DNA from: Candidatus Poribacteria bacterium
GTDB lineage: Bacteria > Poribacteria > WGA-4E > WGA-3G
NCBI GenBank assembly: GCA_022825665.1
Contig: JAJDWI010000037.1
Location: forward strand, 1 to 34,512
Direction: 5' to 3'
Length of the DNA stretch: 34,512 nucleotides
Shown: positions 133 to 29,783 of the stretch, one piece after another
Layout of the letters: the number at the start of each line of letters is the position of its first letter
Numbering within the stretch: position 1 is the stretch's first letter
Notes under the pieces: model-generated
The model's database searches: none
Told to the model about the DNA's origin: nothing
The model's input: only the letters and a program-made list of their open reading frames with translations
Program-made: the position numbers and the translations under genes

Positions 133-272
133 ACAGAGAGATTAAACGCCTGTGGAGTCCAAGTAAGACCTCAAGTAGTTCGGGAAGGAGGCACGAGAGA
201 CGGAAGCAGGAATCACACAGGAGAGTTGTATGCTAAAAGAAGCACACGGCTTTAGCCGTCGTGAGTATCACA
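133..272 (+). ncRNA. Putative omega-RNA / right end of the tnpB element
   Basis: In IS605-family elements the tnpB 3' end and adjacent right end are transcribed as the guide-bearing omega-RNA. This stretch lies between the tnpB stop and the next gene. It ends with a perfect hairpin at 246-259 (ACGGC, loop TTTA, GCCGT), the kind of subterminal palindrome TnpA-type transposases recognise. The exact end of the element is not proven. I place it near 270-272, after the GAGTATCA that follows the hairpin, by analogy with related right ends. Bases just beyond this point would form the natural guide. Confidence 0.55.
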
Positions 273-1373
273 ACCGGTAAGGTTGCTATCTTCACCCAGG
301 CACACACCCCGTTAGAGTTTCGTGAATATCCTATTCCATCTGTAACAGCTGAAGACATGTTAGTGCGGATTCGGATGGCGAATATCTGCGGTTCCGATTT
401 ACATTTTTGGCGAGGTCACGGTCCCAAAATAGCAAGCGGTATTCCACAAGTACTCGGGCACGAAATGATCGGTACCATTGAAGCAAAGGGAAGAAATGTA
501 CAGGTTGACAGTATTGGGCAATCACTCACTGAAGGGGACCGGATTGTTTATTCCTATTTTAAGCCGTGTCAACGTTGTTGGGTGTGTCTTAATGGGAAAC
601 CCGGTTGTCCAAACCGTTACCGAGATTGGCTTGGTGTCTCCAGTGAACAATCTCCACACTTCCACGGTGCGTACGGCGAGTACTACTACATGAAGGCAGG
701 ACATTGGGTTTTCAAAGTGCCTGATGAATTGCCGGATGCACTTGTATCCCCAATCAATTGCGCGCTATCGGAAGTTATCTACGGACTTAATCAGATCGGT
801 ATCACGCTTGGAGATACAGTAGTTATCCAAGGCGCAGGTGGACTCGGATTATATGCGACTGCCGTGGCAAGGGAGATGGGAGCAGGGAAAATCATTGTGC
901 TTGATAGGCTTCCGACACGACTTACGCTTGCGAAGGAATTTGGTGCAGATTACACGCTCAATGTAGATGAACTTGATATGAAGGAACGGGTTGATTTCGT
1001 TCTTGATCATACGAGTGGTATCGGTGCTGATCTTGTCGCAGAATTTGTGGGTTCTCCGCGCGTGCTTGCTGAGGGTATTGAAATGCTTCGGTGGGGTGGT
1101 CGTTACCTCTGGATTGGTAACATCAATCTCGGATTTCCAACCGAAATTGACCCTGGTAATATTGTACGGTGTAGCAAAACTATCCGAGGTGTGATTGTTT
1201 ATGAACCGTGGGTAATTCCGCGTGCGCTTGATTTTCTTAGTCGCACACGGGACAAATATCCGTTCCACAAAATCATCTCCGATACCTTCCCGTTTGAAGA
1301 TATTAACGATGCTTTCTCTTATGCTGATAAGGGTTCCGCCATCCGAGTCGGATTGGAATTTGAAAACAACTAA
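261..1373 (+). CDS. Zinc-dependent MDR-family alcohol/polyol dehydrogenase
   Basis: A 370-aa medium-chain dehydrogenase with a GroES-like N-terminal domain and a Rossmann domain. Catalytic-zinc residues Cys43 and His67-Glu68 (GHE) are present, as is a structural-zinc Cys cluster at 103, 106, 109 and 116. The nucleotide-binding GAGGLGL motif lies near residue 191. Asp215 at the end of the second Rossmann strand favours NAD over NADP. Substrate is not determinable; threonine/sorbitol/butanediol-type dehydrogenases are closest in style. The only start upstream of the conserved KVAIFTQ strand is GTG 261, which lies inside the right end of the upstream tnpB element. The first four or so residues are therefore probably IS-derived, and the original start codon appears lost. 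hemW follows after 7 bp. Confidence 0.88.
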   Translation: MSITTGKVAIFTQAHTPLEFREYPIPSVTAEDMLVRIRMANICGSDLHFWRGHGPKIASGIPQVLGHEMIGTIEAKGRNVQVDSIGQSLTEGDRIVYSYFKPCQRCWVCLNGKPGCPNRYRDWLGVSSEQSPHFHGAYGEYYYMKAGHWVFKVPDELPDALVSPINCALSEVIYGLNQIGITLGDTVVIQGAGGLGLYATAVAREMGAGKIIVLDRLPTRLTLAKEFGADYTLNVDELDMKERVDFVLDHTSGIGADLVAEFVGSPRVLAEGIEMLRWGGRYLWIGNINLGFPTEIDPGNIVRCSKTIRGVIVYEPWVIPRALDFLSRTRDKYPFHKIISDTFPFEDINDAFSYADKGSAIRVGLEFENN

Positions 1374-1380
1374 TATTGAG

Positions 1381-2505
1381 ATGCCTTCTTCCCTCTATAT
1401 CCACATTCCTTTTTGCGCTACGAAGTGTTACTATTGTGCTTTCAACACTTATTCTTTCCAAAAGGAACAAGCGAAAGTCTACTTAGACGCACTCCAATTG
1501 GAGATGGCACTTTATGCACCGAAAACCTCTCCCCTAAATACAATTTTTGTCGGTGGTGGCACCCCATCTATCCTTTCTGCTAACGCCTTAGATAAGTTGT
1601 TTGCTGACATACAGAAACATTTTCGGATATGTTCCAATGCTGAAATAACTGTGGAATGTAATCCGGGTACCGTTGATAGTGAAAAACTCAATGTGATGAG
1701 GAATGCTGGTGTAGACCGACTCAGTTTTGGTTTACAAGCAATGCAGGATGAGACGTTACGGCAATTAGGCAGAATCCACACCGTTGATGAATTTCTCCAG
1801 AGTTATCTTTTAGCACGTGAACACGGTTTTGACAACATCAACATTGATCTAATTTTTGCACTACCAAAGCAAACGATGGATGCATGGCAGCATACCTTAA
1901 ATGAAACAATTTCACTTGAACCTGAACATATCTCTGCCTATAATCTCGTGATGGAGGAATCAACACCGTTTTATGACTGGTGGAAATCTGGTGAACTCGT
2001 TCTCCCCTCTGAAGACACCGAAGCAGGTATGTTTCAGTGGACTATTGAAACGCTTATCTCACACGGATATACGCATTATGAAATCTGTAATTACGCTAAA
2101 CCGAATCGAGAAGTTAAACATAATCTTGTTTATTGGAATAATCAGGAATATGTCGGTTTAGGGGTTGGTGCGTGCGGGTATATTGGTGGTGTCCGTTATA
2201 CCAATATCCGAGGCATTCCAGACTATATTGAAGCACTCAGTAAACATAACAAGCCAATATCTGAGACGGAACACTTAACTGGGAATGCTGAAAAAGCGGA
2301 AACTCTTATGTTGGCACTTCGTAAACGGGAAGGTATCTGTTTAGAAGAATATGAACAGCGTTTCGGTGAGAAACTTGATGTCGCGTTTGGGGATACTCTC
2401 AAAAAGTGGATTGATTTAGAGTTGTTAGAGCGAAACGAGACACATCTCCGTCTCACGCGGCGCGGACTGTTTTTAGCGAATGAGGTTTTTGTGGAATTGA
2501 TGTGA
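1381..2505 (+). CDS. hemW: HemW-type radical SAM heme chaperone
   Basis: A 374-aa radical SAM protein. The CxxxCxxC cluster motif is at Cys12, Cys16 and Cys19, with GGGTPS near residues 58-63. A HemN_C-like winged C-terminal region follows. HemW proteins bind heme and hand it to apoproteins. They resemble HemN (oxygen-independent coproporphyrinogen III oxidase) but lack its N-terminal extension. The short N-terminus here (MPSSLYIHIPFC) fits HemW, not HemN. I chose ATG 1381 because the family starts a few residues before YIHIPFC; the frame is open further upstream but overlaps the dehydrogenase. It is probably co-transcribed with that gene. It ends in TGA, showing that UGA is a normal stop in this genome. 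Confidence 0.93.
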   Translation: MPSSLYIHIPFCATKCYYCAFNTYSFQKEQAKVYLDALQLEMALYAPKTSPLNTIFVGGGTPSILSANALDKLFADIQKHFRICSNAEITVECNPGTVDSEKLNVMRNAGVDRLSFGLQAMQDETLRQLGRIHTVDEFLQSYLLAREHGFDNINIDLIFALPKQTMDAWQHTLNETISLEPEHISAYNLVMEESTPFYDWWKSGELVLPSEDTEAGMFQWTIETLISHGYTHYEICNYAKPNREVKHNLVYWNNQEYVGLGVGACGYIGGVRYTNIRGIPDYIEALSKHNKPISETEHLTGNAEKAETLMLALRKREGICLEEYEQRFGEKLDVAFGDTLKKWIDLELLERNETHLRLTRRGLFLANEVFVELM

Positions 2506-21258: not shown

Positions 21259-22068
21259 ATGAAAAGAGTTAATATGTTGAGAACATCTAATGGAGGTATT
21301 AGGAATTTTGCCCTCATTATGATGATTCTGTTTGTTGGTATCACGTTCAGTGTGTACGCTGCAAAAGAGGATTGCACAAACTTGGAAGGTGAAGGTGCTA
21401 AACCTATTAAAGAAGTAGCAAAAGATGACCCTGGCATACAAAATGACTACGATGAAGTTGTTGAAGAAGATGACCGTAAAGGTGTTGTGTATCTTGCTCT
21501 GATTGGTGGTAGCCAACCGAAAGCAAATGCGTGCGGACTTACGCCAAGTAATGATGCTGGTCAATGGACAGGTTGGGGTGGTCCCTTAAACTTTGACAAT
21601 GCAACAATTGGTGAAGGGGCAGCGACCCGAAATCATATTGTTATCGGTGGAATATATTTTGAACGTGGTATCGGGGCACATGCTATTGGCACTTTTGTAT
21701 ATGATTTAACTGGAGATAAATACCTCAAATTTGAGGCGTATGTCGGCATGTCCGATGAAAAAGATCCAGCCGATTGCGGCCACTGCGGTAGTAGTGATTT
21801 CATATTTACTATTGATGGAAAACAAGCATTCAAATCCGAGACACTTAAAGGGGCAGACGGTGGTGAAAATGTTGAAGCCTTAAAGGTTGAATTTGACATC
21901 CCTTCAAACGCCAAAGAACTTACAATCGTGATGGGAGATGGCGGCGATGGAATTGGCTGCGACCATTCAGCGATTGGAGATGCTAAACTTCTTACCGCAC
22001 AAGCACTCGCAGTTGAACCTGCTAACAAACTCCCTACAATTTGGGGACATTTGAAGGCAAGTTATTAA
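21259..22068 (+). CDS. Secreted NPCBM-domain protein (tandem copy 1)
   Basis: 269 aa. A strong AGGAGG sits 7 bp before ATG 21259. A signal peptide covers about residues 16-35 (VYAAKEDC). The body is an NPCBM (novel putative carbohydrate-binding module) beta-sandwich: NHIVIGGIYFERGIGAHA, TFVYDLTGDKYLKFEAYVGMSD, LTIVMGDGGDGIGCDH. NPCBM domains are usually attached to glycosidases; here it stands alone, so it may be a sugar-binding surface protein. Cys pairs (DCTNL, CGL, DCGHCGS, GCDH) could form disulfides. It ends in AVEPANKLPTIWGHLKASY, a tail kept in the next gene. Confidence 0.88.
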   Translation: MKRVNMLRTSNGGIRNFALIMMILFVGITFSVYAAKEDCTNLEGEGAKPIKEVAKDDPGIQNDYDEVVEEDDRKGVVYLALIGGSQPKANACGLTPSNDAGQWTGWGGPLNFDNATIGEGAATRNHIVIGGIYFERGIGAHAIGTFVYDLTGDKYLKFEAYVGMSDEKDPADCGHCGSSDFIFTIDGKQAFKSETLKGADGGENVEALKVEFDIPSNAKELTIVMGDGGDGIGCDHSAIGDAKLLTAQALAVEPANKLPTIWGHLKASY

Positions 22069-22128
22069 GACATTACATCTATGGATGGATGTTGTTATAT
22101 CTGTCTATTGTTATGGAGGTATATAACG

Positions 22129-22905
22129 TTGAAATTTAATATTATATTTGCTTTAAGCATTTTATTCCTTATAGGTCTCGTTATTGGTATTCACGCCGAC
22201 AAAAGTGACTGCACTAACCTTGATGGAGATGGTGCCAAGCCTATTCAAGAAGTAGGATCAGAAGATGTCGGTACCCAAAATGACTATGATATGGTCGTTG
22301 AAGAGGATACGCGTGATGGTGTCGTTTATCTCGCGTTAATTGGTGGAAGTCAACCGACACCAAACGGATGTGGTCTTATCCCAAAAAATCCAGCAGGTGA
22401 ATGGACTGGTTGGGGAGGTCCTCTCAACTTTGACAATGTTACTATCGGTGAAGGGGCAGCGACCCGTAACCATATCGTTATCGGTGGAACCTACTTCGAA
22501 CGCGGTATCGGTGCTCATTCCGTTGGCACTTTTGTTTATGATTTAACTGGTGGTGATTACGTCAGGTTTGAGGGATATGCTGGCATGTCTGATGAAAAAG
22601 ATCCAGGTGATTGTGGACATGGCGGTAGTAGTCATTTTGTCTTTTCAATTGATGGAACAGAAGTTGAAGTAACCGAAACCTTAACAGGCACTGCAGATGG
22701 CGAAAATGTTGATCCGTTGAAAGTTGAATTTGACATCCCTGAAAACGCCACAGAGCTTACAATTGTTATGGGGGATGGTGGTGATGGATTAGGATGTGAT
22801 CACTCAGCACTGGGTGATGCTAAACTTATCACTGCACAAGCAACGGCGGTTGAACCTGCCAACAAACTTTCCACAACTTGGGGAAGTTTGAAAGCACGTT
22901 ATTAG
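22129..22905 (+). CDS. Secreted NPCBM-domain protein (tandem copy 2)
   Basis: 258 aa from TTG 22129, chosen because GGAGG lies 9 bp upstream and the product then starts with a clean signal peptide (KFNIIFALSILFLIGLVIG, cleavage near IHA). The upstream in-frame ATG at 22081 would add 16 odd residues. Over most of its length it is a close copy of the preceding protein, sharing blocks such as TIGEGAATRNHIVIGG and FERGIGAH. It has lost one Cys (CGHGGS for CGHCGS). The tail AVEPANKLSTTWGSLKARY is retained. The two genes are a tandem duplication 60 bp apart, ending at a terminator. Confidence 0.88.
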   Translation: MKFNIIFALSILFLIGLVIGIHADKSDCTNLDGDGAKPIQEVGSEDVGTQNDYDMVVEEDTRDGVVYLALIGGSQPTPNGCGLIPKNPAGEWTGWGGPLNFDNVTIGEGAATRNHIVIGGTYFERGIGAHSVGTFVYDLTGGDYVRFEGYAGMSDEKDPGDCGHGGSSHFVFSIDGTEVEVTETLTGTADGENVDPLKVEFDIPENATELTIVMGDGGDGLGCDHSALGDAKLITAQATAVEPANKLSTTWGSLKARY

Positions 22906-28119: not shown

Positions 28120-28204
28120 GGTGGGATGGCTGAGTGGACGAAGGCGGCGGTCTTGAAAACCGTTGTGGCGCAAGTCACCGTGGGTTCGAATCCTACTCCC
28201 ACCG
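28120..28204 (+). tRNA. tRNA-Ser(UGA)
   Basis: Acceptor GGTGGGA pairs with TCCCACC. The anticodon loop CTTGAAA gives anticodon TGA. A long variable arm, typical of tRNA-Ser, and TTCGAAT T-loop are present. Discriminator G, with CCA encoded at 28205-28207. It reads UCA and, with wobble modification, other UCN codons. It is not tRNA-Sec, whose anticodon would be TCA. Confidence 0.96.
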
Positions 28205-28212
28205 CCATATAT

Positions 28213-28297
28213 GGAGAGGTGCAGGAGTGGTTGAACTGGACTGCCTGCTAAGCAGTTATGGCGTAAGTCATCGTGGGTTCGAATCCCACCCTCTCCG
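28213..28297 (+). tRNA. tRNA-Ser(GCU)
   Basis: Acceptor GGAGAGG with CCTCTCC. Anticodon stem CTGC/GCAG with loop CTGCTAA, so anticodon GCT. Long variable arm, discriminator G. CCA is not encoded. Reads AGC and AGU. Confidence 0.95.
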
Positions 28298-28304
28298 TTT
28301 TTGA

Positions 28305-28340
28305 ACTTATAACCACCTACGTGATTGTGTAGTTATAAGT
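28305..28340. repeat. Inverted repeat between tRNA genes
   Basis: ACTTATAAC (28305-28313) and GTTATAAGT (28332-28340), perfect over 9 bp. An alternative pairing extends through CTAC/GTAG with a 4-base bulge. It may be a processing or termination structure in the tRNA transcript; no clean T-run follows. Confidence 0.7.
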
Positions 28341-28404
28341 CGGTTTTGGACGGAGTGAAATTCAACTATATCATATTTTCCTCCCCAAAATTTTGACACA
28401 ACAT

Positions 28405-28478
28405 GCGCCTGTAGCTCAGTGGATTAGAGCATCTGACTACGGATCAGAAGGCCGGGGGTTCGAATCCTCTCAGGCGCT
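28405..28478 (+). tRNA. tRNA-Arg(ACG)
   Basis: Acceptor GCGCCTG with CAGGCGC. Anticodon stem TCTGA/TCAGA with loop CTACGGA, so anticodon ACG. A34 is the position TadA converts to inosine to read CGU, CGC and CGA. CCA is not encoded; T-rich sequence follows directly. tadA begins 77 bp downstream. Confidence 0.95.
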
Positions 28479-28554
28479 TTTTTGACTCTTAAGGCATACG
28501 TTGTAAGCATTTAAGGGTCTGTGAATAAAAGCAACATCAAACACTGTTCCTGTT

Positions 28555-29013
28555 ATGCAAATTTTTGATAGTGATATCTTGTGGATGGAGCAGGCACTTG
28601 AATTGGCAAGGCAGGCAAGTGATATAGGTGAAGTTCCTGTCGGTGCGATAATTGTTAAAGATAATGCCAGTATAGCAGCAGCCCATAATCTTCGGGAGTT
28701 CTCTGGGAACCCAATCGCACACGCTGAGGTACTTGCCATACAGGAAGCATCGCAAAAACTTGGAAACTGGCGGTTGACAGATACCGTATTATATACAACT
28801 TTGGAACCGTGTCCGATGTGTGCTGGTGCGATAGTCTTGTCGCGTATACCAAAGGTTGTTTATGCTACTATGGATCCGAAAGCAGGTGCAGCTGGGACAC
28901 TTTACAATATCATCCAAGATGAACGTTTGAATCACCAAGTTGAGTTGGTGAGTGGTATTTGTGCTGAAGAGAGCAGCGAGTTGTTGAAATCGTATTTTAA
29001 GAACCTCCGTTAA
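28555..29013 (+). CDS. tadA: tRNA-specific adenosine deaminase TadA
   Basis: 152 aa, the normal length. The cytidine-deaminase-fold zinc site has His56, Glu58 (HAE), Cys86 and Cys89 (LEPCPMC). EVPVGAIIV and the sharp LSRIPKVVYA block are typical of TadA. It deaminates A34 of tRNA-Arg(ACG) to inosine. The gene for that substrate lies 77 bp upstream in the same orientation and probably the same transcript. No good Shine-Dalgarno precedes ATG 28555. It is flanked by tRNA-Ser genes and followed by SRP RNA, dnaX, ebfC and recR, as in Bacillus. Confidence 0.95.
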   Translation: MQIFDSDILWMEQALELARQASDIGEVPVGAIIVKDNASIAAAHNLREFSGNPIAHAEVLAIQEASQKLGNWRLTDTVLYTTLEPCPMCAGAIVLSRIPKVVYATMDPKAGAAGTLYNIIQDERLNHQVELVSGICAEESSELLKSYFKNLR

Positions 29014-29045
29014 AAGATTAGATACATTCAGTCGAAGGACAGTAG

Positions 29046-29130
29046 GGAGAGATGCAGGAGCGGTTGAACTGGACAGTCTCGAAAACTGTTGTGGCGCAAG
29101 TCACCGTGGGTTCGAATCCCACTCTCTCCG
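29046..29130 (+). tRNA. tRNA-Ser(CGA)
   Basis: Acceptor GGAGAGA with TCTCTCC. Anticodon loop CTCGAAA gives CGA. Variable arm nearly the same as in tRNA-Ser(UGA). Discriminator G, CCA encoded at 29131-29133. Reads UCG. Confidence 0.95.
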
Positions 29131-29196
29131 CCATTGTATGATTGCTATTAAAAGTATGGGTATTTATAAGACTTAATATGATGTCTCGGTTACATC

Positions 29197-29269
29197 GGGG
29201 CAGTAGCTCAGTCGGGAGAGCGCATCCCTCGCACGGATGAGGTCACGGGTTCAAATCCCGTCTGCTCCA
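29197..29269 (+). tRNA. tRNA-Ala(CGC)
   Basis: Acceptor GGGGCAG with CTGCTCC, including the G3-U70 wobble pair that defines alanine identity. Anticodon stem CATCC/GGATG with loop CTCGCAC, so anticodon CGC. Discriminator A, CCA not encoded. Reads GCG. Confidence 0.94.
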
Positions 29270-29285
29270 TATTGTTATACTTTCC

Positions 29286-29374
29286 GGAGAGATGCAGGAG
29301 TTGGTTGAACTGGCATGACTGGAAATCATGTGTGCTGTTTTGCAGTACCGTGGGTTCGAATCCCACTCTCTCCG
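29286..29374 (+). tRNA. tRNA-Ser(GGA)
   Basis: Acceptor GGAGAGA with TCTCTCC. Anticodon stem CATGA/TCATG with loop CTGGAAA, so anticodon GGA. Long variable arm, discriminator G, CCA encoded at 29375-29377. Reads UCC and UCU. Confidence 0.95.
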
Positions 29375-29460
29375 CCATATTTTGGAGCAAAGCCGGCAAA
29401 CGGATATTAACAACGTGTATCCAAGTCGGCATCCCTCACATCCGATAAAGAATGTAACGC

Positions 29461-29706
29461 CTTGGCTATGCTAGGTGGGGAGGTAGCGGTGCCCTGTATC
29501 TGCAATCCGCTATAGCAGAACTGAATTCCCTGTATGCGGCCTGTTTTTGTGGGGACTGTCCCAAGCACGTAGCGTTGATAGTTGGGTCTTGAGCAACGAG
29601 AACTTGTTGAACCCCGTCAGGTCTGGAAGGAAGCAGCGGCAGATAAGTTTTCTCGTGTGACGCAAGGTAGCCTGACTTGAGCCAACGACTTGGGCAACGC
29701 CCGGAA
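29461..29706 (+). ncRNA. ffs: Large bacterial signal recognition particle RNA (with Alu domain)
   Basis: The Ffh-binding domain IV is at about 29611-29640, with the GGAA tetraloop at 29625-29628 and the conserved asymmetric loop bases (GTCAGGTCTGGAAGGAAGCA). The 5' part (GCTAGGTGGGGAGGTAGCGG, then CCCTGTA..CTGCAATCCGCTATAGCAG) is the Alu-domain start of Bacillus/Thermus-type long SRP RNAs, so this is the long form, not the 4.5S type. Ends are approximate by a few bases. dnaX begins about 78 bp downstream, the Bacillus gene order. Confidence 0.92.
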
Positions 29707-29783
29707 AAGTTTGTCAAGTTTTGGGTGCATAGCCATTTATATTATGAACAAGGTAATATATTTATCTGCCTAAGGTTTCAAAC

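Follow-up and report, generated by a model that had tools for sequence, protein, structure and literature searches.

The window analysed here is 34,512 bp long and spans all of C27, a contig in the 4.5-Mb metagenome-assembled genome G000 of the sponge-associated Candidatus Poribacteria. It begins within a mobile element whose right end runs directly into a dehydrogenase gene, and raises the question of whether the element provides the start of that gene and, if so, whether this is particular to one locus. We find from the sequence that the element does supply the start codon and that the same arrangement recurs at many genes, and we consider it likely (a probability of about 0.78) that this tnpB-only element acts as a portable gene start that spares the genes it enters, with the translational component of this reading being inferred.

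The element end and the dehydrogenase start

The 3′ end of a tnpB gene occupies positions 1–132 of the forward strand (43 codons and a TAG stop at 130–132, with the rest lying beyond the contig edge), and its product matches Pfam Cas12f1-like_TNB (E 3.5e-10), with a zinc finger and the RuvC-III motif DRDVNAAINL. The right-end region that follows (133–271, forward strand) is the expected omega-RNA scaffold, and is common to other copies of the element as far as position 271. A gene of 370 codons coding for a zinc-type MDR dehydrogenase (Pfam ADH_N and ADH_zinc_N) starts inside the element and extends from 261 to 1373 on the forward strand. It is followed by a HemW-like radical SAM gene (1381–2505, forward strand; Pfam Radical_SAM and HemN_C) whose ATG is 7 nt past the dehydrogenase stop; the two genes are in the same order in G002, and the HemW-like gene is probably on the same element-led transcript, for which there are no expression data.

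The reading frame of the GTG at 261–263 is closed upstream by a TAA at 234–236, and the next in-frame ATG is at 357 (codon 33), so that, among the usual start codons, only GTG 261 retains the N-terminal strand; no alternative ATG, GTG or TTG start is available to the dehydrogenase. The first 272 bases of the window recur elsewhere in the same genome with different flanks, and in 31 related genomes 105 copies have ...GTGAGTATCAC in common, with a single substitution in a few of them, and diverge from the next base. Because these copies share sequence only up to that point, the element ends at 271, and GTG AGT ATC AC (261–271, forward strand) is element DNA, which provides residues M-S-I of the dehydrogenase and two bases of the Thr codon. 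Orthologs of the dehydrogenase are 75–95% identical across the order, and those without the element begin ATG AAA ACC GGT AAG in the relatives closest to G000, with ATG followed by AA/CA/AG-type codons (ATG AAA/AAT/CAA/AGA AC...) in the others. As the element-free orthologs begin in this way and other copies sit 3′ of TGAA, the ancestral site was ATGAA^AACCGG (the caret marks the junction), and the element inserted after ATGAA.

An earlier note on this sequence had proposed that a hairpin at 246–259 is followed by GTG 261 as the only start that includes the first strand of the protein, and that both the start codon and the first residues come from the element. At the level of sequence both claims held, and neither of two outcomes that would have refuted them was found: the element-free orthologs do not have the GTG-SIT start, and the element end does not map upstream of 261. 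We looked for the left flank of the window copy in G000 using the region upstream of the G002 ortholog and did not find it; the contig starts inside tnpB. The dehydrogenase has a dN/dS of 0.05 relative to its relatives, but the age of the insertion is unknown and this carries little weight.

A tnpB-only element inserting 3′ of TGAA

The left ends of the copies show that the element lies 3′ of TGAA, and reconstruction of the empty sites from orthologs indicates insertion without target-site duplication. There are subterminal hairpins at both ends, the right with a covarying pair (see below) and the left with a palindrome such as CCCAAGCATTTATGCTTGGG. Full-length copies retain the GIDVG, GIETL and DRDVNAA RuvC motifs as judged by eye. 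Y1 genes are present in 18 of 21 genomes including G000, and the two Y1 TnpA loci that were inspected lack the ends of this element. The element is likely to be a tnpB-only IS200/IS605-type element of Ca. Poribacteria. It resembles other tnpB-only members of this group (IS1341-like elements and relatives of ISDra2) in its intact TnpB RuvC and zinc finger motifs, its terminal hairpins, its insertion 3′ of a short fixed motif with no target duplication, and in a guide expected from the right-end flank. It departs from them in that the TGAA target overlaps start codons, the right end has an in-register GTG and (in the type A copies defined below) a Shine-Dalgarno sequence, and the insertions cluster at the starts of genes.

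For ISDra2, the ~16 nt adjoining the right end form the TnpB guide and the TAM corresponds to the insertion target (PMC8612924). By analogy, the first host bases of the window, AACCGGTAAGGTTGCTATCT (272–291, forward strand), are the predicted omega-RNA guide, with TnpB activity itself being inferred. This sequence is found once in its own genome, where the TGAA has been replaced by the element, and is matched perfectly next to TGAA at the empty sites in the sister species G002 and G010. The earlier proposal that the guide corresponds to the 5′ coding sequence of the dehydrogenase therefore holds at the level of sequence. Two other roles were considered and rejected. TnpB is not apparently a nuclease-dead TldR, as full-length copies retain all three catalytic motifs (D, E and D), although the TnpB of the window copy is only partly visible; and the guide was rejected as an antisense regulator of the mRNA because the two have the same sense. 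We note that many copies (e.g. L086, L090, L077, L079, L089, L004, L094 and L095) are internally deleted to ~290–650 nt with only the ends remaining, so that non-autonomous derivatives are common.

Start replacement recurs at many genes

Our survey of the 105 copies from 31 related genomes shows that the dehydrogenase is one case of a wider pattern, which the earlier note did not anticipate. Of the 105 copies, 38 have an open frame of 100 codons or more that starts at the GTG of the element, and the genes fused in this way include argG, tsaD, ubiX, panB, mnmG, ackA and potC-like genes; for most of the fused genes tested, the family profile starts within the first few codons. The left end is readable in 13 of the fused type A copies, and in all 13 its flank ends with a start codon (ATG in nine, TTG in three and GTG in one) followed by AA, in frame, and there is usually an in-frame stop close upstream. 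The 5 nt lost at a start site of the form NTG AA^ and the 11 nt gained (GTG AGT ATC AC) share the same phase, so that the frame is kept at any such site, and the in-frame position of GTG 261 is not a matter of luck at a single locus. That the in-frame join is set by the TGAA target together with the length of the right end was also missed by the earlier note, as was the Shine-Dalgarno sequence within that end. Junctions of the same type are present deep within long contigs of other genomes, one of which is a single 5.3-Mb chromosome.

Not all of the fusions are clear start replacements. The fused copies at pyrR, L066, L109 and L111 retain an ATG a few codons downstream, and ruvX is doubtful. 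In pyrR of G004 and G005 (L073 and L098) the insertion just upstream replaces the natural leader of an RNA-binding regulator, with the native ATG seemingly kept. The pyrR dN/dS of 0.084 is not counted as evidence for use of the GTG because an ATG is retained at codon 5.

Start fusions depend on the type of right end

Two types of right end can be distinguished. Type A has AGGAG or a close variant 35–40 nt before the GTG, and type B shares with it the final hairpin, the final 11 bases and the TGAA target but lacks a Shine-Dalgarno core at that position. After merging insertions common to two species, the GTG is joined in frame to a long gene in 33 of 62 independent type A insertions, compared with none of 31 type B insertions (Fisher p 3e-8). 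For comparison, of TGAA sites drawn at random from 340 kb of Poribacteria sequence, 12.1% give an in-frame frame of 100 codons and 3.2% are start-like. A conservative count that is restricted to clear replacements (24 of 62) remains far above this 3.2% background (p 5e-20). In genus g2, where most copies are otherwise of type B, the genomes G033 and G036 also contain type A fusions, and since type A copies in these two genomes behave like those in genus g1, genus is not the cause of the difference. When one genome per GTDB species was searched, all 46 stretches matching the type A right-end pattern were from Ca. Poribacteria. A third right-end subtype, GGAGGCACGAAATTGAGAAACAAGAAGCACACGTC, is present in L115 (G032) and L170 (G051); it is fused in both copies (2/2), too few to judge.

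tsaD and mnmG begin inside the element

Two single-copy genes are particularly informative. There is one true copy of tsaD per genome, and it begins inside the element in G004, G005 and G051. Element-free orthologs (n=28) begin with ATG or GTG, then AAA, AAG or AGA, and then the conserved ILGID codons, giving an empty site of NTGAA^AATACTTGG. The insertion is common to G004 and G005, with a remnant of ~200 nt that is nearly identical between these two species, and the dN/dS for tsaD between them is 0.068 over a dS of 0.23. As this purifying selection follows the shared insertion, tsaD has been working since then. An in-frame GTG 30 nt upstream in G004 and G005, just past AGGAG, could also be the start. 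The tsaD leader in these genomes (L097, G005:C91; L067, G004:C28) is a decayed element remnant common to two species, in which a TATAAT-like left-end box directly precedes the right-end Shine-Dalgarno sequence and GTG, forming a compact leader. In G051 (L170) a right end of a different subtype is at the same tsaD position, and the site has probably been hit twice.

The second example is mnmG, of which the genome of the window has a single copy, fused to the element (L092/L262, G000:C164, position 16840 downwards). It begins GTG AGT ATC AC^T ACT TAT, where relatives have ATG AAT ACC TAT, and the element's GTG is its sole start. Element-free orthologs start with ATG or GTG followed by AA(T/C), and the empty site is ATGAA^TAC(C/T)TAT. 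The suggestion in the earlier note that expression of the dehydrogenase may depend on the element is plausible and has not been shown; its support is indirect and rests on the purifying selection seen at other genes arranged in this way.

Putative translation and transcription signals

The right end carries an AGGAG at 219–223 (forward strand), a Shine-Dalgarno-like core that nearly all type A copies have and that type B lacks at this position. Shine-Dalgarno cores are in general use in these bacteria, with an AGGA core in 63 of 187 Poribacteria genes compared with 3 of 187 in a control stretch. In the window, 37 nt separate AGGAG from GTG 261, which is too far for direct use. However, a hairpin predicted by folding at 222–253 (forward strand) lies between the two and leaves 7 nt (254–260) before the GTG. 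The terminal hairpin ACGGCTTTAGCCGT (246–259, forward strand) is an alternative to the 3′ arm of the larger one, and when it is formed the effective spacing is similar. It has one covarying pair (G-C, C-G or A-T), which in one group of type A copies is replaced by an A-A mismatch. In phage T4 genes 38 and 25 a distant Shine-Dalgarno sequence is bridged by a hairpin (PMC3014915), and a similar arrangement here would shorten the effective spacing to ~5–9 nt. It counts against such a bridge that, for many right ends, pairing of GTGA with an upstream UCAC and part of AGGAG is predicted in the fold of minimum energy, and this would be an obstacle to initiation. Consensus folding of the raw right-end alignment with RNAalifold gave no clear structure because the loops differ in length, and an Rfam search found no family for this right end. 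Translational coupling through a GTGA overlap with an upstream reading frame was considered and rejected, as the frame ending in that TGA has a TAG at 253–255.

The left ends often have TTGACA and TATAAT separated by ~17 nt (a strict pattern is present in 8 of 15), and would add a sigma70-like promoter. A simple model is that the right end is a portable translation start, composed of AGGAG, a hairpin bridge and a GTG whose register relative to the NTGAA target is fixed, such that insertion at a start codon would replace the start and keep the gene expressed. Type A insertions at start sites would be harmless because the start is rebuilt, and would then be retained since the gene could not survive losing the right end. 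When each copy is compared with its closest counterpart in the same genome, start copies show slightly greater divergence than the rest (p 0.04), which fits retention and is weak evidence. In the absence of expression data, it is inferred that ribosomes initiate at the GTG, that the hairpin acts as a bridge, that the left end acts as a promoter and that the enrichment is caused by retention.

Alternative explanations

One alternative is that the enrichment reflects target preference and not selection, with A-rich sites near starts being favoured by transposition into single-stranded, unstructured DNA and the in-frame GTG a by-product. In its favour, TGAA directly overlaps NTG-AA start sites. 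However, type B copies have the same TGAA target and last 11 bases and yield no start fusions (0/31), and the somewhat greater divergence of the start copies is what retention predicts. We regard this explanation as unlikely, although a direct targeting bias of type A remains possible.

A second alternative, also improbable, is that the real start is a Shine-Dalgarno-proximal GTG or TTG 30–36 nt upstream, such that the element encodes an N-terminal extension. An in-frame codon of this kind at a good spacing from AGGAG is present in many of the fused copies of G004, G005, G033 and G036. However, a TAA at -27 blocks this start in the window copy, mnmG, ubiX, panB, ruvX and others. In L104, L106, L163 and the G004 copies, the upstream GTG or TTG reads through the hairpin and would add an extension of 10–12 residues (...KKHTALAVVSIT).

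It is also conceivable that the fused genes are decaying or silent and that the frames opened by the GTG arise by chance; random TGAA sites do give 12% in-frame joins and there are no expression data. This is very unlikely, because the fused genes include single-copy tsaD and mnmG, the tsaD dN/dS is 0.07 after the shared insertion, and about 55% of type A insertions are in frame compared with the 12% expected. Finally, an assembly artefact joining a repeat to an unrelated gene, which might be suspected in that the window begins inside a multi-copy repeat in a metagenome-assembled genome, is all but excluded by the window copy's own variant bases in the right end (TTGTATGC), by a junction that combines the exact conserved element end with the ancestral codon position, and by the equivalent junctions deep inside long contigs elsewhere, including the 5.3-Mb chromosome.

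Relation to known systems

The preferred reading, a tnpB-only element serving as a portable gene start, has partial parallels. The T4 gene 38 and 25 leaders similarly have a distant Shine-Dalgarno sequence brought to working distance by a hairpin, but each is the fixed leader of one gene, whereas here a mobile element end serves many genes. At fucAO, IS5 activates its neighbor by means of a promoter (PMC11894529), and the element described here likewise would bring a promoter to a flanking gene, with the difference that it also supplies a putative ribosome-binding site, the start codon and the first residues. IStrons and other gene-sparing elements make insertion tolerable for the host gene; here there is no splicing, and the gene would be spared by replacement of its start. 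We found no earlier account of an insertion sequence whose end rebuilds start codons in the literature searched, the coverage of which was partial.

If this reading is correct, a mobile element can spare its host by replacing start codons and not by avoiding genes, would be hard to lose once essential genes depend on it, and would have one RNA segment acting both as the scaffold of the TnpB guide and as the site where ribosomes bind a host mRNA. A caution is that mobile-element DNA can form the start of genes in these genomes, and the copies provide a natural series of testable leaders. A bolder reading, for and against which the evidence is evenly poised, is that in one lineage of IS200/IS605-type elements the right end, as guide-RNA scaffold, has been turned into a complete portable gene start, with promoter, Shine-Dalgarno sequence, hairpin spacer and a GTG in register with a start-overlapping TGAA target, that can invade essential genes and become indispensable to them, and that remnants such as the 215-nt tsaD leader are domesticated gene starts.

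Two other features of the window are apart from the element. Six tRNA genes are clustered and followed by a large SRP RNA (28120–29732), and two adjacent paralogous genes (21259–22905) with ~75% DNA identity and a repeat spacing of 837 represent a tandem duplication.
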